NCBI GenBank assembly: GCA_002869605.1
Contig: PKUI01000215.1
Span: 1-16,202 of the forward strand
Length of the DNA: 16,202 nucleotides
From: Desulfuromonas sp.
GTDB taxonomy: Bacteria; Desulfobacterota; Desulfuromonadia; Desulfuromonadales; SZUA-401
Reading direction: 5' to 3'
Part shown: positions 1 to 16,197 of the stretch, piece by piece
How the letters are laid out: each line of letters opens with the position of its first letter
How positions within the stretch are numbered: position 1 is the stretch's first letter
Translations under genes and position numbers: made by a program
The notes under the pieces: generated by a model
The model's input: only the letters and a program-made list of their open reading frames with translations
Told to the model about the DNA's origin: nothing
Databases searched by the model: none

Positions 1-362
1 AAACATCGGCTGCCGGTTTCCCAAAAACAGATAACAAACATACCATTGTTTGCGGCAGAGTGAAGTCACCCTGTCCTCATCCCCGACGCTAGCAGCAACC
101 CCAATAAGATCGCTCTCTGGTAGTCAAAGCCTCCCTCTACAGCTTGCTCTGCTTTGAACCCCGGTCGCCGGCGTGACAGAGCGATGTCTTCAACTAAAAC
201 TAAGCCTTTCATACTCTTGCCATAAACTACAATTGAATATAAATTACCCTAGTAGACATATAATCACTTATTTTTATTCAAAAATTTGCCTTTATCGCTC
301 GAACCGTTTGAAGTTCATTTTTTGAGCTTTAATTTTGTTGTTTTCTGGGGGGGGGAAGGAAA
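1..362. other. intergenic leader of the CHAT gene
   Basis: I find no convincing gene here. A plus-strand frame is open from the left edge to a TGA at 61-63 (20 codons). It could be the tail of a gene outside the window, but I recognise nothing in it. Positions 180-345 are strongly AT-rich and hold the candidate promoter elements listed separately. A run of nine G (347-355) directly precedes the AAGGA Shine-Dalgarno-like sequence of the next gene. Confidence 0.6.
217..264 (+). promoter_or_regulatory. candidate promoter region of the CHAT-lipoprotein operon
   Basis: Two weak sigma-70-like arrangements lie in the AT-rich leader. TTGCCA at 217-222 is followed after 17 bases by TAAATT at 240-245. 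A perfect TATAAT at 259-264 has only a poorly placed TTGAAT (233-238, spacer 20) upstream. Either would give a leader of about 90-120 nt before the GTG at 363. The sequence does not decide between them. Confidence 0.3.
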
Positions 363-3300
363 GTGAAAGCCGTCTGCCGCATTGTATCTCTAGCCGTTGC
401 CATCCTGCTTATGTTCCAATCCCTCTCTTTGGCTGAGCGCTCTATCCGCCTTGAACAAAGTCCTTCATCAGTCCCAAAAACAGAAACTGTCACACTCCCA
501 GACCTTGAAGGCACCTCGAACTACGAAGCTGGCGAAGCCCTTTTTGCACGGGGATTCTACCAAGAGTCTGCAGCAAGATATTTCCTGGCTCTTGATGACC
601 ATCGTGACCAGCTTGAAAAACCCTATCTGACACTTGGAACCTCGGGGAGAACAGCCGCAAAAGTTGCCAGCTCACTATTGATGGGTACCTTTACGCTTTT
701 GATCGTCAACAGCCCATCTGCCTATGGAATGACCTATGGCGGCAAAATGAAAAACGAGTCGGATGCACTGAATGACAAGGGCTTTTATGTCATCAACACC
801 CCTCTGCACATCTACAAGCGTCTCATTCAGGCAAGTTTTAAAAGTGGCAATCTGGTCCAGGCAGAAAAATATATCAGCGAAGGGATGAGCTATGCCCTAC
901 AAATCAAGCAGGCGACAAAGTCATCACCCGGCCTTAACCTTGCGGACACCCAAAAGGCTTCCTCCATTGTCTCTCTGGAAGCCACACTCTATGAAATCGA
1001 ATACCTTTCCGCCCAGGCTGACATCCGCAGTCTCTGCGGCAAATACCTCGACAGCCTGGGCAAGGTCAGACAGCTCAATAGAAAAATTGCCGAACTCCAA
1101 ACCGCGGCAGAAGAACAAGCTGTTTTAAAAGCCAAGGTTGCCATGCTTGTTGCGCGCCTGTTGACCGAAACCGGAGACTTCCAAAAGGCCCTCGCCCTAT
1201 ACGATTTCGCCTTGAAAAACCTCGACCATCCAAGCGGAGAGTTTTCTTTCAATTACGCCAAGGATGCTAAGTATAGCTTCAAGGTACCGTTGGTTGAAGA
1301 TCTGGTCACAGCCTACCAAGGCAAAGCAAGCATTCTGCACCGCCTCGGGCAAACGCAAAAAGCCATAGAAACCTGCAATCGTTGCTTCGACTACTTTTCA
1401 ACCTCTGCGCTCAAAAATCACTTCTCTCCCGAATACATTGAGTACCTTCTCAACCCTATCCGCCTTGAAAAAACCCGGTTCTACGTTTTCCTGCGTCAAT
1501 GGGAACTCGCCAAGGAGCAGCTAAGCCCTCTCATTTCTGGCAATCAGGACCTGTTCCTAGGCGCGGAAAGCAACCTGCTGCTCTCCGAAATTCATGTCCA
1601 GACAGGTGAGGTTGCAGCCGGCAAGCAAGCCACAGAAAAGGGTATTGCCATGGCGAAAGCGATAGACGCTGACACGCTCCAGCGCAAGGGTCTTTTAATG
1701 CTGGCCACTCTGATGCTTTCAGATGAACCAGACAAGGCGATTGAAACCCTTGAAAAAGTACAAAAACTTGAAAAAAAAATGGGGATCATGCGCCCCGACG
1801 TTAAGCTACTTCAAATAGAAGCGTATCTTTCCGTAGGGAACATCAAGAAAACACGCCATCTCCTTGGCGAAGTTCAAAAAGAACTCCCCCAATACAATGA
1901 CCCCCATCTTCACCAAGCCTTCTATCACCTCAAAGCAAAGTCGCTCTACAACATGCAACAACCCAAAAATGCCGTCGAGAACTACAAGAAAGCCATCTCG
2001 TATCTCGAGAAATTACGTGGTGAAATTGGCGTCGACAACTTTAAAACCACATATTTTGCGAACAAGACCGTCCTGTACAACGAGATGATCGACATCCTTA
2101 TCGAATTGGGCAACATCGAAACTGCCCTCCAGTTCCTGGAAAAGACTAAAGGACGCACCATGGTCGACCTGTTATCACAGGGTAGATATAAGGCATCGAC
2201 AGCGCAGAATGCACTCTACCAGGAGTTGAAAAGCAACGAGGTTTTGCTTACTGCCAACCTGCAAAAACAAACCCGGCTCTCAGAATTGAACGAGGGGCAG
2301 AGATCCGTTCAAAACGATCTGACCGGAGAGCTTCGCTCACTTGAAGATAAAAATCGAAGCATCAGGCTAAAAATCCAGGAACGCGACCGCTATTTCTCCT
2401 CCGTTGTTTTGGGGGAAACCACCGGCTACCAGAAACTTAAAAAGACTCTCGATTCCAAGACACTCCTGGTCGAATATTACCTCGGCGAAAAGAAGAGTGG
2501 GGCCTTTCTCGTTAGTCGCAAGGCGCTTAAATATGTCCCCCTATCTATCAAACTTAAAGACCGGGTACACGCGTTGTTGGAAAATCATGGCCTCAGCGAC
2601 AGGGAACGCTACCGAAATCTCGGGAAACTACTTATTGCCCCCCTGCAGGACAAATTCACGGCCTTCAAACAGATTGGCTTCATCCCTTCTGGCCCACTTA
2701 ACAACGTCTCCTTTGTGGCCCTCGATTACATGGGCAAACCTTTGATAGATAATAAATCGGTCTTCGTCGTTCCCAGTGCCTCGATCTACGAGATGGTGTC
2801 ACAGAAACCCTTCAAACCAAGCGGTAAAGCGCTGGTCTTTTCAGATCCGCATTACGATGACCAGGTACTCGGCCTGCCCAATGCCCAGAAGGAAGGACAG
2901 ATGATCGCCAAAATTTTCAACCAGGCGACGCTGTATGACAAGAAGGCAGCCACGGAAGACGCATTCAAACAGCAAAACGGACCTTATGACTTTTATCACT
3001 TTGCTACGCATGGTTTCTTCAATGAAAACAATCCGATGCTTTCGTATATTTCATTACGTGACTCTTCTGAAGACGACGGCAAACTGTTTGCCAACGAAAT
3101 TATCGGCCATGATCTTTCAAGTGATCTGGTCGTCATCAGCACTTGCCAGAGCGGACAGGTAAAAGTCATCGGCGGTGATGAAATCATGGGTTTAAATCGA
3201 TCATTTCTGATCGCAGGAACCAAAACGCTGATATCCACACTCTGGAATATTGACGACGCAGCAACCTACACCATGATGAAAGAATTCTATCGCCGCTATC

Positions 3301-3413
3301 ACCCTGGGGGCAATAAGGCAGAAACCTTCAGAACTGCGCTATTGAAAATGAAAACGGAATTTCCTGACTACAGATACTGGGCTGCTTTTCAATTGAGCGG
3401 GTCCATACATTGA
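363..3413 (+). CDS. exported TPR-repeat CHAT-domain protein (caspase-like cysteine peptidase family)
   Basis: This is a 1016-aa protein starting at GTG 363, two bases after an AAGGA. The GTG is preferred to the in-frame ATG at 411 because only the longer form carries a full signal peptide: basic start, hydrophobic residues 7-19, predicted cleavage after SLA (A24). Residues about 50-600 are helical TPR-like repeats (roughly nine or ten), ending in the LEKTKGRTMVDLL type of segment that often precedes CHAT domains. A charged, probably coiled-coil stretch spans about 615-680. Residues about 700-1014 are a CHAT domain with both expected catalytic residues: His883 in HFATHG and Cys928 in STCQSG, followed by GGDEIMGL and TLWNIDD. 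CHAT domains belong to the caspase/separase clan, so proteolysis is likely but not shown. The signal peptide places it outside the cytoplasm. An unusual hydrophobic stretch lies at 101-117. The lipoprotein gene follows 11 bases later and is probably cotranscribed. Confidence 0.92.
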   Translation: MKAVCRIVSLAVAILLMFQSLSLAERSIRLEQSPSSVPKTETVTLPDLEGTSNYEAGEALFARGFYQESAARYFLALDDHRDQLEKPYLTLGTSGRTAAKVASSLLMGTFTLLIVNSPSAYGMTYGGKMKNESDALNDKGFYVINTPLHIYKRLIQASFKSGNLVQAEKYISEGMSYALQIKQATKSSPGLNLADTQKASSIVSLEATLYEIEYLSAQADIRSLCGKYLDSLGKVRQLNRKIAELQTAAEEQAVLKAKVAMLVARLLTETGDFQKALALYDFALKNLDHPSGEFSFNYAKDAKYSFKVPLVEDLVTAYQGKASILHRLGQTQKAIETCNRCFDYFSTSALKNHFSPEYIEYLLNPIRLEKTRFYVFLRQWELAKEQLSPLISGNQDLFLGAESNLLLSEIHVQTGEVAAGKQATEKGIAMAKAIDADTLQRKGLLMLATLMLSDEPDKAIETLEKVQKLEKKMGIMRPDVKLLQIEAYLSVGNIKKTRHLLGEVQKELPQYNDPHLHQAFYHLKAKSLYNMQQPKNAVENYKKAISYLEKLRGEIGVDNFKTTYFANKTVLYNEMIDILIELGNIETALQFLEKTKGRTMVDLLSQGRYKASTAQNALYQELKSNEVLLTANLQKQTRLSELNEGQRSVQNDLTGELRSLEDKNRSIRLKIQERDRYFSSVVLGETTGYQKLKKTLDSKTLLVEYYLGEKKSGAFLVSRKALKYVPLSIKLKDRVHALLENHGLSDRERYRNLGKLLIAPLQDKFTAFKQIGFIPSGPLNNVSFVALDYMGKPLIDNKSVFVVPSASIYEMVSQKPFKPSGKALVFSDPHYDDQVLGLPNAQKEGQMIAKIFNQATLYDKKAATEDAFKQQNGPYDFYHFATHGFFNENNPMLSYISLRDSSEDDGKLFANEIIGHDLSSDLVVISTCQSGQVKVIGGDEIMGLNRSFLIAGTKTLISTLWNIDDAATYTMMKEFYRRYHPGGNKAETFRTALLKMKTEFPDYRYWAAFQLSGSIH

Positions 3414-3424
3414 AGGAGGGCCCT

Positions 3425-5293
3425 ATGGCTTGTCGCAAATTTTTCATATTACTGACACTCTTGCTTTGCTCGTTTACTCTCAGCGGATGTTTGTCCTTGA
3501 TGGCCTATCCCGCAGGGGCACTGTTGAAAGTTGAATCGGAAGCACAACTATTACCGTTGACTCTCACAGCGCCTCTGGAAATTGAAGCGATTCACCATCG
3601 CAATTATTACGTCTACGTTGACAAAAGCACGCTTAAAAACGATGTATGGATGCGCACTACAACCAAATTCAATGAGCTCACCGAGTCTTATAAGGATTCC
3701 GTCATAAGACTGCTGAACGAAAATTTTGCTGCAAGTGCTAAAGGAGAAGTCCTAGTTTCTGAAACAAACCTTCAAAGCTTAATCAAACAGAAAAACGACG
3801 ATATCTACCTGAAAATATCATTGCTGAAAATAACGACCGAATTATCGAATCCAATAATTGAATTGGCTGACGGCATTTATACAGTTTCAATTTCTGTCGA
3901 AGCTTTTGATTCCGAAGGGAAAAACCTTTTTAAAGAAGGATATGAAAGCGAATTTCAAATAGGCGCTTTGAACCTAGAAGCGGCAAAGCAGTCGTTCACA
4001 AAACCGCTTTCAGAGGTCACAACTAAGGCACTGAACGACATCCTTACCTCTCCAAAAGTGAACAAGTACCTCGCATCTCTTGGAACAACCAAAAACCTCG
4101 ATGAAGAAATCGTCGATATTCTGCATGAAATCGACTCGAATATCGCGACAAGCTTTAAGAAATCCGGGACACTTTCCTTGAAAATTCTCAGCCCCCTGGA
4201 ACCAGAGAACGTTGATTACTACTTTCGGAGCGACCGACTCAATAAACCCCAACGAAGCGATAAAGCGTTCAGCTTAAATCGCCGAAAATTTCTTCTCGTG
4301 CTCGATGGAAAGGAACAATTTTCCTGGTCCTTCTTCCCCTTTAACATGGTCGCCAAGCAGCACCGGGGGAAACAAGGTCGGAATTACTCCATTCGTTACG
4401 AGCCTGTTCCCATAGACTTTTCAATCAACCCCGGAAAGCATCGTATCGAGGTGTTCGAATACGAGACGTCGGATTTAGACCAGGAAGTCCTTCCCTACCC
4501 TCCACTCTATGCTGTCGATACTTTTGAAAAGGTGGTCGAGCAGGCCATAGCTCCTGACGCCAATTATGAGATCAACCAGTGGCAGAAAAAGTTCCTTGTT
4601 TTTTCTCGTGAGGTCCAAGTGAAGGAAAACAACACAACAAATGTTGCCTTCGGAGACAAAAATACACCGAAAAAGTCATTTAATTACCTAAAAGAACAAC
4701 ATTCTTCGCACCTCAACAGGGGGGCTCTAACCCGAAATCGAAATTTACTGGACATTAACCTTGATGCAAATTTCAAGGCATTCAGAAATGTCAGTCAACG
4801 TATCTATCTCGCACAAAACTATCTCGACAAAAAAATTGAAACCCTAAGTATCTCCGAGCCCAGGATAACCTTCAAAATTCCTGGAATAGTTCTGGACGAG
4901 AGCAAACATGCAACGTTCATAAAGAGAAAAGACAACTGCTATCCTAGAATTGAAAACGGACTGACATACATCTTCAGGAACCTGCCTTTTATAGATAAAG
5001 TTGTCCCGACGTCCAGCCATCCAGACTACACTCTTGAAACAGATGTCGAGATTTACATCCCCAACATCGGGCAAAGACGCGCTATTGCAATTTTCGGGAA
5101 TAGAAATCTCAAGGGGTGGCATAAGTTCATTTTTGAACTCAAGGACAACCGCACAGCGGAAACGGTTTATAAACAGATCTACTGGGAAGAATCACCCCAG
5201 TCCTCCGCTAGAATCAATTACGTGGATCCCGAAAAAGCGATCCAGTCGGCGTTGAATGATTTGGATATGAACTTTAAACTCCTTAACCCCTAA
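3425..5293 (+). CDS. large lipoprotein of unknown function, partner of the CHAT protein
   Basis: This encodes 622 aa from ATG 3425. That start sits five or six bases after a strong AGGAGG (3414-3419), which makes the in-frame TTG at 3410 unlikely. The N-terminus is a lipoprotein signal peptide: short basic start, leucine-rich core, lipobox LSGC with Cys22 as the lipidated residue. The +2 residue is Leu, not Asp, so outer-membrane sorting is possible. The rest is mixed alpha/beta and soluble-looking. Residues about 85-215 and about 530-615 each read like a small alpha/beta domain of the kind found in outer-membrane accessory lipoproteins; this is a visual impression only. I recognise no catalytic motif and no family name. 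It is GC-poor like the CHAT gene. Spacing and shared composition suggest one operon and a shared role in the envelope, for example as anchor, regulator or substrate of the protease. That role is inference. Confidence 0.85.
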   Translation: MACRKFFILLTLLLCSFTLSGCLSLMAYPAGALLKVESEAQLLPLTLTAPLEIEAIHHRNYYVYVDKSTLKNDVWMRTTTKFNELTESYKDSVIRLLNENFAASAKGEVLVSETNLQSLIKQKNDDIYLKISLLKITTELSNPIIELADGIYTVSISVEAFDSEGKNLFKEGYESEFQIGALNLEAAKQSFTKPLSEVTTKALNDILTSPKVNKYLASLGTTKNLDEEIVDILHEIDSNIATSFKKSGTLSLKILSPLEPENVDYYFRSDRLNKPQRSDKAFSLNRRKFLLVLDGKEQFSWSFFPFNMVAKQHRGKQGRNYSIRYEPVPIDFSINPGKHRIEVFEYETSDLDQEVLPYPPLYAVDTFEKVVEQAIAPDANYEINQWQKKFLVFSREVQVKENNTTNVAFGDKNTPKKSFNYLKEQHSSHLNRGALTRNRNLLDINLDANFKAFRNVSQRIYLAQNYLDKKIETLSISEPRITFKIPGIVLDESKHATFIKRKDNCYPRIENGLTYIFRNLPFIDKVVPTSSHPDYTLETDVEIYIPNIGQRRAIAIFGNRNLKGWHKFIFELKDNRTAETVYKQIYWEESPQSSARINYVDPEKAIQSALNDLDMNFKLLNP

Positions 5294-5353
5294 AACATTT
5301 AAAAGCTAATCCAGTCGTCAAAAAACAGATTCACAACAAGCAATTCATCATAA

Positions 5354-5391
5354 AAGAAACGCCCCGCCTCAATAGAGACAGGGCGTTTCTT
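5354..5391 (-). terminator. terminator hairpin of the vestigial tRNA-Glu unit
   Basis: Arms of 17 bases (5354-5370 and 5375-5391) surround a 4-base loop. On the minus strand the arms pair completely if two G-U pairs are allowed. On the plus strand the same positions are C/A mismatches. It therefore seems to have evolved for minus-strand transcription, as the terminator of a tRNA-Glu unit now lost. It may also end the CHAT-lipoprotein transcript arriving from the left. Confidence 0.7.
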
Positions 5392-5397
5392 ATTGAT

Positions 5398-5418
5398 TGG
5401 CGTCCCCAGGGGGATTCG
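5398..5418 (-). pseudogene. 3' remnant of a third tRNA-Glu
   Basis: These 21 bases match the last 18 bases of the intact tRNA-Glu (one T-arm strand, the 3' acceptor strand and the discriminator) plus an encoded CCA. The match stops at the TTCG region, and what follows at 5419 is unrelated. The flank towards 5354 also matches the flank of the intact copy, so the remnant keeps its own terminator. It is either a decayed tandem tRNA copy or an attachment-site duplicate left by an element that recombined at the tRNA 3' end. Confidence 0.75.
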
Positions 5419-5541
5419 CCCACTACGTCGCGCTTGCGCACGCCTGCGTCGGCTCCCCTCCGCTCGCTTCCGCGGCCATACTGACCGCTTGTCTGACATT
5501 AGGTCAGCGCTCGCTCCGCTTCAAATCCCGACATGTCAGAA
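5419..5541. other. GC-rich non-coding insert between tRNA-Glu remnant and intact tRNA-Glu unit
   Basis: About 123 bp stand where the body and leader of a tRNA-Glu would be expected. The stretch is GC-rich, contains repeated CGCTCGCT(T)CCGC-like words and several short inverted repeats (CTGAC/GTCAG around 5493-5507; TCTGACAT and ATGTCAGA near its right end). No credible reading frame or integrase gene is present. It may be a copy of a dispersed repeat or the scar of an excised element. Confidence 0.5.
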
Positions 5542-5587
5542 CAATAAGAAACGCCCTGCCAAAACCATAGCAGGGCGTTTCTTATTG
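5542..5587 (-). terminator. terminator after the distal tRNA-Glu
   Basis: A perfect 18-bp inverted repeat (5542-5559 and 5570-5587) with a 10-base loop starts three bases past the CCA of the tRNA-Glu at 5590-5667. The arm contains AAGAAACGCCC and its complement, so the minus-strand transcript ends its stem in a U-rich run. Being perfect, it could work in both directions. Confidence 0.8.
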
Positions 5588-5589
5588 AT

Positions 5590-5667
5590 TGGCGTCCCCA
5601 GGGGGATTCGAACCCCCGTCGCCGCCGTGAAAGGGCGGTGTCCTGGGCCAGGCTAGACGATAGGGAC
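5590..5667 (-). tRNA. tRNA-Glu (anticodon UUC), distal copy, CCA encoded
   Basis: A complete cloverleaf is readable on the minus strand. The acceptor arm is GTCCCTA with TGGGGAC. The anticodon arm is CCGCC-CTTTCAC-GGCGG, giving anticodon UUC, and the T arm is GGGGG-TTCGAAT-CCCCC. The discriminator G is at 5593 and CCA is encoded at 5590-5592. It is the last intact gene of the Lys-Glu-Glu cluster. A hairpin terminator lies upstream of it in transcription order (5763-5798), so it needs either read-through or a promoter of its own; I see no strong one in 5668-5762. Confidence 0.96.
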
Positions 5668-5762
5668 TTAAAACTTCAAGCACCTAGCAGGAAATGATCC
5701 TGCATGAACGCCATTTTTTAATTGTTGCTGCAGTGTCGCGAAACTTATTAAAAGGTAACTAA

Positions 5763-5798
5763 GAAACAACCCCGCTGGCTGTGCAGCGAGGCTGTTTC
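5763..5798 (-). terminator. terminator after the proximal tRNA-Glu
   Basis: Arms 5763-5777 and 5784-5798 give a 15-bp stem on the minus strand (two G-U pairs) with a 6-base loop, beginning a few bases past the 3' end of the tRNA-Glu at 5805. The weak pairs fall correctly for minus-strand RNA only. Confidence 0.7.
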
Positions 5799-5804
5799 AT
5801 TGGG

Positions 5805-5879
5805 CGTCCCCAGGGGGATTCGAACCCCCGTCGCCGCCGTGAAAGGGCGGTGTCCTGGGCCAGGCTAGACGATAGGGAC
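5805..5879 (-). tRNA. tRNA-Glu (anticodon UUC), proximal copy, CCA not encoded
   Basis: The 75-nt body is identical to the copy at 5593-5667, with the same acceptor, anticodon (UUC) and T arm. The three bases after the discriminator read CCC on the minus strand, not CCA, because an extra G follows the TGG on the plus strand (5802-5804). Mature ends must therefore come from the CCA-adding enzyme. It lies between tRNA-Lys and the second tRNA-Glu in the same transcription direction. Confidence 0.95.
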
Positions 5880-5936
5880 TTAAAAAACTTCAAGCACCTA
5901 GCAGGAAATGGTCCTGCATGAACGCCAATTTTTAAA

Positions 5937-6012
5937 TGGTGTGCCGCGTAGGGATCGAACCTACGACCATCTGATTAAAAGTCAGATGCTCTACCAACTG
6001 AGCTAGCGGCAC
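5937..6012 (-). tRNA. tRNA-Lys (anticodon UUU)
   Basis: On the minus strand the acceptor arm is GTGCCGC with GCGGCAC. The D arm begins GCTCAGTTGG. The anticodon arm ATCTGA-CTTTTAA-TCAGAT gives anticodon UUU. The T arm is CGTAGG-TTCGATC-CCTACG. CCA is encoded at 5937-5939. It is the first gene of the cluster, eight bases or so from the expected start point of the promoter at 6027-6055. Confidence 0.97.
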
Positions 6013-6026
6013 ACAACGGAATGCTG

Positions 6027-6055
6027 TTTATACTCATTTAGCGCGAACGAGTCAA
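6027..6055 (-). promoter_or_regulatory. promoter of the tRNA-Lys-Glu-Glu cluster
   Basis: On the minus strand TTGACT (6050-6055) is separated by exactly 17 bases from TATAAA (6027-6032). This is a near-consensus sigma-70 promoter whose start point would fall around 6020, just before tRNA-Lys. A GC-rich GCGCG segment in the spacer half and the short leader fit a stable-RNA promoter. Confidence 0.8.
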
Positions 6056-6117
6056 CCTCTTTTTTTTATCGCGCAAAACAAGGCGTAACATGCCGAAGTT
6101 AAAACCTTTTAGAAGCT

Positions 6118-11175: not shown

Positions 11176-12672
11176 TTAAAGCGCCTGCAGATAATCGAGC
11201 AGCAGACGCACGCCGAACCCGGTCCCCCCTTTGGGCTGATGGGGTTTCCCCTGTTCCTCCCAGGCGGTTCCAGCGATGTCGAGGTGGGCCCAGTTGAGAT
11301 CCTTGGTGAAGTGCTGCAGAAACGCCGCCGCAGTAATCGTCCCGGCGGTGCGGCCACCGATGTTCTTGATATCCGCCACGTCACTCTTGATCTGCGCCCT
11401 GTAGGGTGCCCACAGCGGCAGCTGCCAGAGCCTCTCGCCACTGCGCTCTCCTGCCTTGAGCAGTTTCTGGACCAGGCGCTCGTCGCTGCCGAGGACCGCC
11501 GCCGCATGGTTCCCCAGGGCGATGATACAGGCTCCGGTGAGCGTCGCCAAATCGATCACCGTGCGCGGCTGGTAACGCCGTGCATAGGTCAGGGCATCGG
11601 CCAGGATCAGGCGCCCCTCCGCATCGGTGTTGAGAACTTCGACGGTAGTTCCGGAAAGTGTGGTCAGGATATCCCCGGGGCGGATCGCCGTCCCAGAGGG
11701 GAGGTTCTCCACCGCCGGCACGATGCCGACCAGGTTCAGCGGCAGTCCGAGCAGCGCCGCCGCGTACATGGTGCCGAGCACCGCGGCACCGCCGGCCATA
11801 TCCATCTTCATCTCGTCCATCTTCTCGGCCGGCTTGAGCGAGATGCCGCCGGCATCGAACACCACCCCCTTGCCGACCAAAGCGATCGGAGCCTCCCCTT
11901 CGGGCCCGCCGCGATGCTCGAGCACAATCATGCACGGTTCACGCTCGCTTCCCTGGGCCACTCCGAGCAGCGCCCCCATCTTCTCCTCCTGCAATGCCTG
12001 CTTGTCGAGGACCGTACACTCGAGACCGACCTCGGCGGCGATCTCCCGGGCACGCTCGGCGAGGTGCTGCGGTGACTTGACGTTGCCCGGCTCGTTCACC
12101 AGGTCGCGCGCAAAGCAGACCCCGCGCAGCACCTGCTGCGCCTGCTCCAGGGCGGCTTCGGCCACCGACAGGTCATCGCGCGGCGCGACCAGCAGCAGCG
12201 CCCGCTCAAGCGCCGGTTCCAGCTTGTCGGCCTCCTCGGTACGATAGCGATCGAAGCGGTAGTCCGCCAGCAGCATCCCCTCGGCGACCGCGGCAACCCG
12301 CCCTCCGAGATCACTCTTGGGCACTTCGCACTGCGCCATGGCCATCACGCAGCTGCGGATCCGCCGTGCCTGCAGCTGACGCACCGCATCGGCCGCCGCC
12401 TGGCGCAAGCCCCCCAGATCGGCTTCACGCACCCTGCCGAGACCCACCAGCATCACCCGCTCGGCGGGGATCTCCGCCGCGGCATGCAGCAGCAGGGTCT
12501 GCTGCGCGGCACCGGTGAACTCCTGTTGCCGCCAGGCCCGGGTCAGTGCTCCATCGAGGGCCTGATCGAGTTCCTGCAACTCCTTGCCGGGGCGCTTCCC
12601 TTCGAAAGCCCCCACGACGACACATGCACCTTTTTGTTTGAGGATTTCCCCCCGCTTAACCGTCATCTCCAT
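11176..12672 (-). CDS. pepA: leucyl aminopeptidase (M17 family)
   Basis: PepA is a cytoplasmic two-metal aminopeptidase, usually hexameric, that removes N-terminal residues from peptides. The 498-aa protein has a variable N-terminal domain (about 1-165) and the catalytic domain. In the latter are VGKGVVFDAGGISLKP (catalytic Lys268, metal ligand Asp273), the MDMAGGAAVLG segment and the family signature NTDAEGRL at 348-355 (metal ligands Asp350 and Glu352, catalytic Arg354). All expected active-site residues are present. The start is uncertain by a few codons: a GTG at 12681 is only two bases from AAGGAG, the ATG at 12672 is eleven bases from it and was chosen. glpD ends 41 bases upstream on the same strand, so both may share a transcript. 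Some PepA proteins also bind DNA; this cannot be judged here. Confidence 0.95.
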   Translation of the reverse strand: MEMTVKRGEILKQKGACVVVGAFEGKRPGKELQELDQALDGALTRAWRQQEFTGAAQQTLLLHAAAEIPAERVMLVGLGRVREADLGGLRQAAADAVRQLQARRIRSCVMAMAQCEVPKSDLGGRVAAVAEGMLLADYRFDRYRTEEADKLEPALERALLLVAPRDDLSVAEAALEQAQQVLRGVCFARDLVNEPGNVKSPQHLAERAREIAAEVGLECTVLDKQALQEEKMGALLGVAQGSEREPCMIVLEHRGGPEGEAPIALVGKGVVFDAGGISLKPAEKMDEMKMDMAGGAAVLGTMYAAALLGLPLNLVGIVPAVENLPSGTAIRPGDILTTLSGTTVEVLNTDAEGRLILADALTYARRYQPRTVIDLATLTGACIIALGNHAAAVLGSDERLVQKLLKAGERSGERLWQLPLWAPYRAQIKSDVADIKNIGGRTAGTITAAAFLQHFTKDLNWAHLDIAGTAWEEQGKPHQPKGGTGFGVRLLLDYLQAL

Positions 12673-12713
12673 TGCGTTCACTACTCCTTCGTATATTCGT
12701 GGATCGTGTCCTG

Positions 12714-14348
12714 TTAACTCTCATCAAGCGCCGTCTGGCGTCGATATTCCTCCTGCCAGCGCTGAACAACCTCGGCATCGGCTCCGAGCAGCTTCGCCAT
12801 CTGTTCGGCGACCGCTTTCAGCTCGGTCAGCCCGCGCCCCTTGCCGAGCGCCAGTGGCGTTCGGCGTCGCAGCAGGTCTGCCGGGCAGCGTGCCATTTCG
12901 TGCAGAACACCATAGGCCACCTGGACCCTCAGCAGCTCGGAGCCGGCGCAGACCGGCTCGGCCAACCCCGGGTCATCCTCGAGCATCGCGAGCAACTGCC
13001 GGGTCCGCGCACCGTAGAGCGCCGCCAACCGTTCGACCTGAGCGGCACTCACCCCCCCCAGTTTGCGCAGCATCCGCCAGTGGTGGCGATGCCCTGCGCG
13101 GATCTGCATCCCCTCGCCGCCCGGCAGCGCCACCCGGTCGGTACGACACCCCGGGTCTTTCAGGCCGAGCCGTGCCACCACCAGATCGGCAACTTCCTCT
13201 GCCACCGCCCGGTAGGTGGTGTATTTCCCCCCGCCAACAGAAATCAACCCCGAGGAGGAGACGACGACGCGATGCTCGCGCGACACCTTGGAGGCGCTCT
13301 CCTGGTCCTCGGCAATCAACGGGCGCAACCCGGCGAACGCGGCGACCACATCGTCGCGTCCGAGTTCGACATCGCGCAGATGTCGGCGGCTCTCCGCGAG
13401 CAGGTAATCGATATCGTCACGGGTCGGCATCACCCGATCGGGATCATCGCTATAATCGACATCGGTGGTACCGATCAGTGACAGGTCGCCCCAGGGGATG
13501 ACAAAAAACAGCCGTTCATCGCTGCCGGCCGTCAGGTAGAGGGCCTCGGCGCACTGGCCGATACGCGGTACCAGGATATGCGTACCGCGGGTCGGTCGCA
13601 ACAGCTCGCCATATTCCCCGTCAAGAGCGCGTACCTTATCGAGCCAGGGCCCGGCGGCATTGACCACGCAACGCGCGTGCACCTTGATCTCGCGCCCCGA
13701 CTCGAGATCGCGCAGTGTCGCTCCCGACAGCGTTCCCCCGCAATAGCTCAGAGCCACCGCCTCGAGGTAGTTGCCGACCTGCGCGCCGGCCTCTGCGGCG
13801 GCGATGACGTTCTCCAGGCAGAGGCGAGCGTCGTCCATACGGCAGTCCCAGTAACGAGCCACGCCGCGCAGCCCCTGTGGCTGCAGCACCGGGGCCAGCG
13901 AGAGCGCTCGCACCGCGGAAAGGATGCGATGATACCCGACACTGCGAAACGTCGAGAGCAAATCGTAGAGCATCAGGCCGGCCCGCACCATCCACAACGG
14001 TCGTGGGTCACCACGATAGACCGGGATAAAAAACGGCAGCGGCTGTACCAGGTGGGAAGCGATCTTCTGCAGCACCGCCCGTTCACGGCACGCCTCGAAG
14101 ACCAGGGAAAAATCGAAGTTTTCCATGTAGCGCAAACCGCCATGCACCAGCTTGGTGGAGGCACTCGAGGTCCCCGAAGCGAAGTCGCCCTTGTCGACCA
14201 GCAAGACGTCTAGACCACGCATGGCGAGATCACGCGCCAGTCCGGCACCGTTAATCCCGGCGCCGATAACCAGCACATCGAAATCCCGGGACGACCAATC
14301 TTCAATCGCACGCCGACCATAGGCGGAATGTGTCGATATCGCTCTCAT
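12714..14348 (-). CDS. glpD: glycerol-3-phosphate dehydrogenase, FAD-dependent
   Basis: The enzyme oxidises sn-glycerol 3-phosphate to dihydroxyacetone phosphate at the membrane and passes electrons to quinone. The 544-aa protein has an N-terminal FAD-binding GAGINGAG (residues 29-36), the acidic end of the second strand (VDKGDFASGTSS), the STKLVHGGLRY segment, NAAGPW, the RPTRGTH and IPWGDLSLIGTTD segments, and a late SVGGGKYTTYR, followed by a C-terminal helical domain. The order matches the GlpD/GlpA-like family. ATG 14348 is preferred to an in-frame GTG at 14396; no good Shine-Dalgarno lies before either. No glpK or glpF is nearby. The gene is divergent from the lipoprotein gene at 14506 and may be transcribed together with pepA. 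Confidence 0.95.
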   Translation of the reverse strand: MRAISTHSAYGRRAIEDWSSRDFDVLVIGAGINGAGLARDLAMRGLDVLLVDKGDFASGTSSASTKLVHGGLRYMENFDFSLVFEACRERAVLQKIASHLVQPLPFFIPVYRGDPRPLWMVRAGLMLYDLLSTFRSVGYHRILSAVRALSLAPVLQPQGLRGVARYWDCRMDDARLCLENVIAAAEAGAQVGNYLEAVALSYCGGTLSGATLRDLESGREIKVHARCVVNAAGPWLDKVRALDGEYGELLRPTRGTHILVPRIGQCAEALYLTAGSDERLFFVIPWGDLSLIGTTDVDYSDDPDRVMPTRDDIDYLLAESRRHLRDVELGRDDVVAAFAGLRPLIAEDQESASKVSREHRVVVSSSGLISVGGGKYTTYRAVAEEVADLVVARLGLKDPGCRTDRVALPGGEGMQIRAGHRHHWRMLRKLGGVSAAQVERLAALYGARTRQLLAMLEDDPGLAEPVCAGSELLRVQVAYGVLHEMARCPADLLRRRTPLALGKGRGLTELKAVAEQMAKLLGADAEVVQRWQEEYRRQTALDES

Positions 14349-14356
14349 GACAGCCG

Positions 14357-14384
14357 ATTCTACCTGTTTGCCTGCACGACGCAA
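14357..14384 (-). promoter_or_regulatory. possible glpD promoter
   Basis: On the minus strand TTGCGT (14379-14384) and TAGAAT (14357-14362) are 16 bases apart. The start point would fall near 14350, right at the ATG at 14348, which would make the mRNA nearly leaderless and fit the missing Shine-Dalgarno. The -35 match is poor. Confidence 0.3.
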
Positions 14385-14425
14385 ACCCGACGGCACAAAA
14401 AAGTGTTGGTGCAGGGCTGCATTTT

Positions 14426-14453
14426 TTGACAGTTCTTTCGTAGGAGTTAGAAT
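14426..14453 (+). promoter_or_regulatory. promoter of the divergent lipoprotein gene
   Basis: A perfect TTGACA (14426-14431) is followed after 16 bases by TAGAAT (14448-14453). The start point would be near 14460, giving a leader of about 45 nt that ends in AAGGAG and the ATG at 14506. Confidence 0.65.
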
Positions 14454-14505
14454 ACTTTATACTTTTTCTATTGTTTCTATCGGCATGAGGAAGGAGTCCC
14501 GATCG

Positions 14506-15363
14506 ATGATCAGATTTCGCCCGCTATCCCTCGTTTGGCTGGCCCTGTTGCTGCTCAGCGCCTGCGCCCCTGCGACTCAACCCGAGACCTGTGACCCGGC
14601 ATCTACACTCGGTGCCGACCGGATTGCCAGCACCTATCGCGACACCCCCGGCACCACCGCGATTGCCGGCAACGTCCACCTGGCCGAAACCACCGAGCCG
14701 CTAACCGACGCCTACGTCAACGTCTACCCCGACACCATCTCGAACCTGCTCGGCCCCAGCCAGTACATCTCCCTGCCGACCGCAGCCGATGGCAGCTACA
14801 GCATCGAGCTCCCTCCCGGCACCTACTACGTGGTGGCCCGCAAACGGGTCAGCGGCGACCCGACCGGCCCCCTCTCCCCCGGCGATTTCTACTCCGAGCA
14901 CCAGCGGGTGGTGGCCAACGTCGTGCCCGACCGTACGGTACTGGTCGACCTCGAAGTGGTCGCCATGCAAGCCCCAATGTTCTTCAAGAAGATGGTCATC
15001 GAAAAAGAGACCGCGACCGGCTTCCGCGGACACCTGGTCGATGCCAACGGACAGCCGATCATGGGCGGCTTCGCCATGGCCTACAGCGACCCCGACATGA
15101 AGCGCCTTCCCGACTTCGCCTCGACCCTCTCTGACCGCGAGGGGAGCTTCACTCTCTACCTCCCCGCCGGCGGCACCTATTACCTCGCAGCCCGCGTTCA
15201 CGCCTGGGACATGCCGCGCCCCGGCGAACCCTACGGGATCTACGGCGGCGACACCCCCACGGCAATGGAGATCGCCACCGGCAGTTTCCGCGAAAAGATC
15301 GAGATCGTCATGACCCCGTTCAGCGGCAATTACCAGCCGGGCAAGAGCCGCCGCCCCTTCTGA
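14506..15363 (+). CDS. lipoprotein with two carboxypeptidase-regulatory-like repeats
   Basis: This is a 285-aa protein with a lipoprotein signal peptide: MIRFRP start, leucine-rich core, lipobox LSAC with Cys20. Two beta-sandwich-like repeats follow. The first (about 45-155) has AIAGNVHL and DGSYSIELPPGTYYVVAR. The second (about 170-278) has GFRGHLVD and REGSFTLYLPAGGTYYLAAR. These are the G-x-[VL] and D-G-x-[FY]-x-[FL]-x-[LV]-P-x-G-x-Y-x-[VL]-x-A patterns of carboxypeptidase-regulatory-like (transthyretin-like) domains, which usually act as stability or binding modules. ATG 14506 is preferred to the ATG at 14485 because AAGGAG lies nine bases before it and the signal peptide begins there. 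GC is high (40 of 60 at 15061-15120), like the core genes. It has its own promoter and terminator. The role is unknown beyond an envelope location. Confidence 0.87.
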   Translation: MIRFRPLSLVWLALLLLSACAPATQPETCDPASTLGADRIASTYRDTPGTTAIAGNVHLAETTEPLTDAYVNVYPDTISNLLGPSQYISLPTAADGSYSIELPPGTYYVVARKRVSGDPTGPLSPGDFYSEHQRVVANVVPDRTVLVDLEVVAMQAPMFFKKMVIEKETATGFRGHLVDANGQPIMGGFAMAYSDPDMKRLPDFASTLSDREGSFTLYLPAGGTYYLAARVHAWDMPRPGEPYGIYGGDTPTAMEIATGSFREKIEIVMTPFSGNYQPGKSRRPF

Positions 15364-15416: not shown

Positions 15417-15477
15417 GGACCTTCTGAATCCATCATTGAAACTCCTTTGGCTGTTCCTGGAATGCGGGATTTGCATC

Positions 15478-16197
15478 ATGCCAACAAAGACGGTTAGTGA
15501 AGAGGTAGCCCTAACAACATCCCCTCGCCAGTGGGTCAGAGTAGTTATGTTTTATCTAGTCATCCCGCTGAGCTTGGTGATATGCGGGGGTGATCTTGGT
15601 TGGTGGCAGGCGTGGAGCTATGCCCTACTGATTGTTGCCGTAGGTCTAGGGGGGCGCATTTGGGCGGAACGGCGACACCCGGGGTTGTTGGCCGAACGAC
15701 AAAATATAGAAAAGGTCCAGAGTGCGAAAGCTTGGGACAAAGTTCTTGCTCCATTGATGGCGTTGAGTGTGAGTTTCCCTCTGGTTATTGTTGCCGGGCT
15801 GGATCATCGCCTTGGCTGGTCACCCGTATTTCCGTTGTGGATCATCGTGCTCGGGCTCCTCTTAATTCTGTTCGGATACGCTTTTGCGGCGTGGGCATTG
15901 ATAGAGAATCGCTTTTTCTCCAGCGTGGTGCGTATTCAGGTGGAACGAGGGCACGTGGTGTGTGACAGTGGACCCTATCGAATTGTGCGACATCCGGGCT
16001 ATGCAGGAAATATGTTGGCAATCCCGGGTATGGTGCTGGCCTTAAACTCAATGTGGACACTTATTCCTGCGGTAGTAGCGCTAATCATCGCGGTGATTAG
16101 AACAATGCTGGAAGACCAGACGCTACAGGACGAGTTGCCAGGCTATCGCGACTATGCACGACGCGTGCGCTATCGGTTGATTCCGGGACTTTACTGA
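15478..16197 (+). CDS. membrane methyltransferase of the isoprenylcysteine carboxyl methyltransferase type
   Basis: This is a 239-aa integral membrane protein with about five hydrophobic segments (near residues 20-36, 45-57, 90-107, 119-140 and 183-207). The C-terminal part carries the family hallmark: RHPGYAGN (Arg171-His172-Pro173), then Glu212 in RTMLEDQTL, then LPGYRDYARRVRYRLIP. In this family that region binds S-adenosylmethionine and the lipid-side substrate. Bacterial members act on varied and mostly unknown lipids or proteins, so the substrate cannot be named. ATG 15478 is used; a TTG at 15436 would add 14 residues without a better ribosome site. GC is lower than in the preceding gene (32 of 60 at 15841-15900). 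It follows a terminator, so it should have its own promoter, but I see no strong one. Confidence 0.85.
   Translation: MPTKTVSEEVALTTSPRQWVRVVMFYLVIPLSLVICGGDLGWWQAWSYALLIVAVGLGGRIWAERRHPGLLAERQNIEKVQSAKAWDKVLAPLMALSVSFPLVIVAGLDHRLGWSPVFPLWIIVLGLLLILFGYAFAAWALIENRFFSSVVRIQVERGHVVCDSGPYRIVRHPGYAGNMLAIPGMVLALNSMWTLIPAVVALIIAVIRTMLEDQTLQDELPGYRDYARRVRYRLIPGLY

Follow-up and report, generated by a model that had tools for sequence, protein, structure and literature searches.

An exported TPR-CHAT protein gene and an adjacent orphan lipoprotein gene form a probably acquired cassette in a Desulfuromonas-like bacterium

CHAT and separase-like proteases are known chiefly as intracellular enzymes. One study states that CHAT substrates are often encoded close to the protease, describes cutting of Csx30 and gives the protease dyad as H585/C627 (PMC9729208). 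Other papers describe some prokaryotic metacaspases that look extracellular and for which surface death or fratricide has been proposed (PMC3501461), a conflict-system protein that contains a caspase-like CHAT domain (PMC10907252), DdvA as the anti-sigma factor of DdvS, with a signal that is unknown (PMC4374960), and two Bacteroides CHAT proteins near type VI secretion system effectors, one of which is thought to be transmembrane (PMC11854122). We found no exported CHAT-lipoprotein pair in the CHAT-domain literature that was open to our search, which lay mostly outside subscription journals and offered some sources only in part. Here we analyzed such a pair at one end of a 16,202-nucleotide stretch of Desulfuromonas sp. 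DNA (contig PKUI01000215.1; hereafter, the window). In our best reading, the window carries a mobile, diverged envelope CHAT module, for which we infer a mechanism below.

The Pfam CHAT model (PF12770) matched the protein encoded by the first gene with an E value of 1.1e-54 (186.3 bits, against a cutoff of 24), and several TPR families matched it as well. By home-made rules, which we used in place of SignalP to call all export signals and lipoboxes in this study, its N-terminus was Sec-type (MKAVCRIVSLAVAILLMFQSLSLA followed by ER) and had no lipobox; cleavage would occur before ER. Both dyad residues, His883 and Cys928, were present in all 42 CHAT relatives compared and did not vary in either of two alignments, one of 47 and one of 51 rows. 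The signal peptide, the TPR and CHAT parts and the intact dyad had all been proposed in a first-pass annotation, and the rules, Pfam and the alignments agreed with it on each. The protein has both the CHAT-protease profile and the dyad and is a putative protease. Its structure model was confident mostly from about residue 400, the CHAT region included, and the modelled fold resembled those of the Craspase TPR-CHAT protein, separase and DdvA.

The second gene lies 11 bases past the CHAT stop codon, behind the motif AGGAGGG, and likely starts at ATG 3425, the start given by the open reading frame (ORF) finder being TTG 3410. The spacing, the lipobox and the strong ribosome site of its own were thus as first described. 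A ribosome-site-like sequence precedes both genes, and guanine-plus-cytosine (GC) content differs by codon position in both. The encoded lipoprotein has, by rule, the lipobox LSG-C with its Cys at residue 22. In Escherichia coli, the residue after the lipobox Cys directs sorting, Leu leading to the outer membrane; because Leu follows Cys22, the window lipoprotein is probably sorted to the outer membrane. The positions of both genes and of the features around them are listed in Table 1.

Table 1. Positions in the window of the two cassette genes, their sequence features and the adjoining transfer RNA (tRNA) copies
Feature	Position	Strand	Basis
Nine-G run just 5' of the CHAT start, possible slippage site	347..355	+	sequence
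TPR-CHAT protein with export signal, 1016 amino acids, GTG start	363..3413	+	ORF, Pfam, structure model
Sec-type signal peptide of the CHAT protein, residues 1-24, predicted cleavage between SLA and ER	363..434	+	home-made rule, sequence
Helical region with TPR repeats, about residues 46-646	498..2300	+	Pfam TPR stretches between 261 and 547; model
CHAT domain, residues 749-1014	2607..3404	+	Pfam
His883 codon of the dyad	3009..3011	+	alignments
Cys928 codon of the dyad	3144..3146	+	alignments
Ribosome site AGGAGGG of the lipoprotein gene	3414..3420	+	sequence
Orphan lipoprotein, 622 amino acids; lipobox Cys22 at 3488-3490; Leu at residue +2 after the Cys position	3425..5293	+	
Remnant: last 20 bases of tRNA-Glu (5399-5418) and terminator-like hairpin; 86% repeat of 5546-5610	5354..5418	-	
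tRNA-Glu (ttc), duplicate copy	5590..5667	-	
tRNA-Glu (ttc), duplicate copy	5803..5879	-	

The nine-G run could change in length and so switch expression; as a background for it, we counted 16 G or C runs of at least nine bases in 2,554,320 bases of other loci. All eight terminator-like sites reported in positions 1-6100 were on the minus strand.

The lipoprotein had no match in Pfam or PADLOC at an E value of 1, and its matches in NCBIfam (E 0.3), PHROGs (E 0.29) and PDB sequences (E 0.08 at the lowest) all fell short of threshold, so that the description of it as a protein without known family stood. A protein database search that scored the 7996 candidates with the most words in common returned the lipoprotein itself only, and a search of genome contigs returned two pattern stretches, neither of them a relative. 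We obtained no match in 136 genomes of the order or 277 of the class, a result to be read with the tool's own warning that, unless a positive control is run, an empty output proves nothing. In the phylum, matches were found in 2 out of 395 genomes (L091 and L092; E 0.025 and 0.081, respectively), and both were judged to be noise, the former being a PAS/methyl-accepting-type protein by eye. Viral contigs and plasmids gave no match (phage records were not searched with this protein), and BLASTP against the neighbouring ORFs of the CHAT loci L123-L178 gave nothing below E 0.18. An internal repeat was not supported, the hhalign score being 12.6 against a shuffled mean of 12.9.

The GC content of the cassette in 1-kb windows was 42-49%, compared with 57-68% from position 6001 on, where the gene at 15436-16197 alone had 53%. 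The cassette ends next to a 20-base remnant of a tRNA-Glu 3' end with its hairpin, followed by two identical tRNA-Glu genes. Among the matches listed, the PurA protein of the window shared 72% identity with its counterpart in Desulfuromonas sp. BM509 (L001), and HisZ and SerA were 63% and 58% identical to their L001 counterparts, respectively; from these values, the host appears to be Desulfuromonas-like and of a species other than L001. The same purA-tRNA-Lys-tRNA-Glu site in L001 holds a 42% GC insert (11486-13546) between two tRNA-Glu copies, which form a 102-base repeat of 99% identity with the second copy at the contig end. This insert contains one long ORF, lipoprotein-like by eye and unlike either window gene, and the tRNA-Glu site thus seems to collect low-GC cargo. 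Given the low GC content, the tRNA-Glu repeats and the other low-GC insert at the L001 site, the two-gene cassette was probably acquired. We saw no integrase in the window. Elsewhere in the window, a further protein with a carboxypeptidase-regulatory-like domain, encoded at positions 14347-15363, looks like a lipoprotein by eye.

Searches with the window CHAT protein matched 8 out of 136 genomes of the order and 68 out of 395 of the phylum (both at E 1e-10), as well as 59 out of 277 of the class (E 1e-20). The best matches mostly spanned residues from about 480-540 to 1014 at approximately 30% identity, and residues 28-480 alone matched none of the 277 class genomes. We counted 56 CHAT genes in loci L123-L178, 14 of which were flagged as truncated at the end of a region or contig; L132 and L162, duplicates of L178 and L177, were left out, and L150 gave no CHAT ORF with our caller. 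By rule, 33 of the 42 relatives counted as untruncated were exported (18 with a lipobox, 15 with another signal peptide and 9 with neither), a count in which L125, scored as lacking a signal, was in fact cut (a signal peptide is present in L199, its full form) and L160 may be cut as well. Among the 407 non-CHAT genes of these loci, the rules flagged 107 as exported. By these rules, exported CHAT proteins are common, and the initial view of export as unusual was not supported. One locus (L147:11-11051) carries four same-strand CHAT ORFs; two encode lipoproteins by rule, and the fourth is preceded by two short ORFs.

A same-strand lipoprotein gene lay within 60 bases of 8 out of 56 CHAT genes and of 8 out of 407 other genes (Fisher p 1.7e-4). 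Both this comparison and the CHAT gene counts involve genes that are not independent within one locus type, and the lipobox rule fails to flag the L165 and L177 partner genes, which resemble those of L163/L164 and L176, respectively. In Deltaproteobacteria bacterium GWC2_42_11 (L154), an exported CHAT gene is followed after 4 bases by a gene for a 331-amino-acid lipoprotein that, like the one in the window, found only itself in the database search. Upstream of this CHAT ORF, and overlapping its mechanically called start by 4 bases, lies a further ORF without a Pfam family (L154:8892-9758). A VxVDKxxL-like stretch, noticed by eye, had suggested a fold common to the window and L154 lipoproteins, a candidate that hhalign did not support. 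At three loci (L163:1138-5015, L164:4529-9835 and L165:3679-7413), a lipoprotein CHAT adjoins an ankyrin and caspase-domain protein with a lipobox-like N-terminus, an arrangement that would place two caspase-like proteins together on the envelope; L164 has a further caspase-domain gene upstream. CHAT genes also lie beside an LEA_2 lipoprotein gene (L160) and, at a distance of 188 bases, a gene for a DUF4384 protein that is lipoprotein-like by eye (L161). The lipoproteins next to CHAT at L167 and L172 are without a family, as is that of L154.

A tree built from 80 CHAT regions placed the window protein in a set of 21 rows (support 99/97), mostly giant CHAT proteins, where it was nearest to three lipoprotein CHATs (L126, L127 and L131; support 95/73). 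We fetched 33 chosen giant-CHAT loci out of those listed (3 + 20 + 10; L176-L208), from genomes of the class and phylum to which L001 belongs; genome G003 is that of L004, Geobacteraceae bacterium GWC2_53_11. Genes were counted by tblastn at E 1e-4 with the L176 and L178 proteins, which match themselves, and the same strand was required but adjacency was not. Same-strand matches were found for a DUF1318 lipoprotein in 31 out of 33 loci (the exceptions were L203, in which no upstream gene was called, and L208), an SH3 protein in 28, an M48 peptidase in 27 and a long upstream gene in 29. The order, noted for L176-L207 and clear at L178, L181 and L183, was an unidentified long gene, the DUF1318 lipoprotein, the giant CHAT, the SH3 protein and a BepA-like M48 peptidase; the families were DUF1318 (L176, L178 and L204), which we take to be the YdbL family of E. 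coli, SH3_3 and Peptidase_M48. We dropped the label 'YdbHlike' for the long upstream gene, as the 1205-amino-acid L209 protein had no Pfam or NCBIfam match. The giant proteins, of 2672-2944 amino acids, had a signal by rule in 29 out of 33 loci when fetched with upstream DNA, and the lipoprotein ORF overlapped the mechanically called CHAT start in 20 out of 33 (17 loci with a 16-base overlap and 3 with a 4-base overlap). The L176 M48 protein was nearest to BepA, far below the BepA cutoff, and the N-terminus of the L176 giant matched TolB propeller models below cutoff. We found no published name for these loci.

Taking these results together, we tentatively favor the reading that the pair is a functional envelope module in which the lipoprotein is a tether and a regulator or substrate. 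A separase/caspase-like TPR-CHAT cysteine protease would be exported by Sec to the periplasm, where the lipoprotein, at the outer membrane, would hold it in place and keep it inactive until an envelope signal arrives. The released protease would then cut a nearby protein, with the lipoprotein itself as the first candidate; it is the Craspase precedent that suggests this step from neighbour to substrate.

Several observations weigh against this reading. When CHAT genes were compared with exported non-CHAT genes, which is the fairer comparison, the enrichment of adjacent lipoprotein genes was not significant (5/107; p 0.063). The proposed arrangement of CHAT and lipoprotein genes was therefore borne out relative to other genes and at the giant loci, but not relative to exported genes. 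Differing partner families would also fit chance among envelope genes. No search found a homologue of the window lipoprotein, and the data on this pair are confined to the window; because relatives of the lipoprotein were not found, conserved pairing of the exact two genes cannot be shown. A lack of conserved pairing beyond the strain had been named at the outset as refuting the proposal; within the reach of our searches, this applies to the exact pair but not to the general arrangement, which recurs. The single-sequence model of the lipoprotein was too poor for use (predicted local distance difference test score 31.8), and its hhalign score with the L154 lipoprotein, 18.2, lay within the range of 60 shuffles (mean 15.2, maximum 20.9). 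The window branch in the tree is long (1.71), making the place of the window CHAT unsure. In the same tree set, 13 out of 21 rows were labelled as lacking an export signal, most of them having been cut at the 5' end in fetching, and L208, the full-length form of L123, still lacked one.

A rather unlikely alternative is that the envelope CHAT works on its own or together with host proteins, the lipoprotein being unrelated cargo on the same acquired segment. An orphan lipoprotein would fit this explanation, as would the L001 insert, with a different lipoprotein-like gene as its sole long ORF, and the 48 out of 56 CHAT genes that had no adjacent lipoprotein by rule. However, cargo would account less well for the 11-base spacing with a strong ribosome site, or for the recurrence of envelope CHATs beside lipoproteins, whether LEA_2, ankyrin-caspase, DUF1318 or the family-less ones of L154, L167 and L172. 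The scaffold explanation, in which the CHAT protein has no protease activity, we regard as very improbable: the literature found, some of it available only in part, mentioned no substrate or activity of an exported CHAT, but the dyad was invariant in all 51 aligned rows and lies in a region that was confidently modelled.

The pair might also be an inter-strain or anti-phage conflict cassette, mobile and fast-diversifying, with a periplasmic death protease and a lipoprotein acting as sensor or immunity partner. The low-GC segment at a tRNA site that varies in L001 too, the window and L154 lipoproteins that each match only themselves, and the lipoprotein CHATs adjoining lipoprotein ankyrin-caspases at L163-L165 are all consistent with such a cassette, and caspase-like and CHAT domains serve bacterial conflict systems (PMC10907252). 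Nevertheless, we consider it improbable. PADLOC gave the CHAT protein only a weak match (candidate family PDC-S05, 19.7 bits, over the TPR part), and the lipoprotein had no copy on the viral contigs or plasmids searched. Matches to the CHAT region were distant, occurring on 164 out of 72,556 plasmid and 1 out of 50,697 phage records without covering 80% of it in any, and the nearest CHAT kin lie in loci of conserved gene order.

Returning to the envelope-module reading, export signals were widespread among the CHAT relatives, and a related group keeps its gene order with envelope genes. A broader extension, which we regard as doubtful, is that Desulfobacterota have periplasmic separase-like proteases, each with an outer-membrane lipoprotein, for envelope surveillance. 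One form would keep the conserved DUF1318 and BepA-like order, and the window would be a mobile, fast-changing offshoot in which a new lipoprotein, possibly one that senses a target, has taken the place of the earlier partner. Should these proteases be active in the periplasm, they would represent a new type of switch for envelope stress or death, and the window pair, if the reading is true, would suggest that these switches pass from strain to strain and that their lipoprotein partners can be exchanged.

Compared with known systems, the window protein shares its fold and His-Cys dyad with Csx29, the TPR-CHAT protein of type III-E CRISPR (clustered regularly interspaced short palindromic repeats; Craspase). 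Csx29, by contrast, is bound to an RNA-guided effector, and its NCBIfam model scored 17.8 bits on the window protein against a cutoff of 300. DdvA of Myxococcus xanthus (8rot and 8rw5), a transmembrane anti-sigma factor whose TPR-CHAT part probably lies outside the cytoplasm, has a TPR-CHAT fold like that of the window model, whereas the window protein has a signal peptide at its N-terminus and no anti-sigma Pfam match. The pairs at L163-L165 resemble the window in having an envelope CHAT beside a lipoprotein, but there the CHAT itself is a lipoprotein by rule and the partner has a caspase domain (Peptidase_C14). The giant-CHAT loci share with the window a supported tree set, export signals by rule and a lipoprotein gene alongside, although their DUF1318 lipoprotein lies upstream and SH3 and BepA-like M48 genes follow downstream. 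The window instead has a different lipoprotein downstream of CHAT, followed by tRNA genes; this lipoprotein had no Pfam match, DUF1318 included. Finally, the window CHAT protein has 1016 amino acids, with matches to TPR and CHAT families only, compared with approximately 2750 in the giants, among which a TolB-like N-terminus was shown for L176 only.

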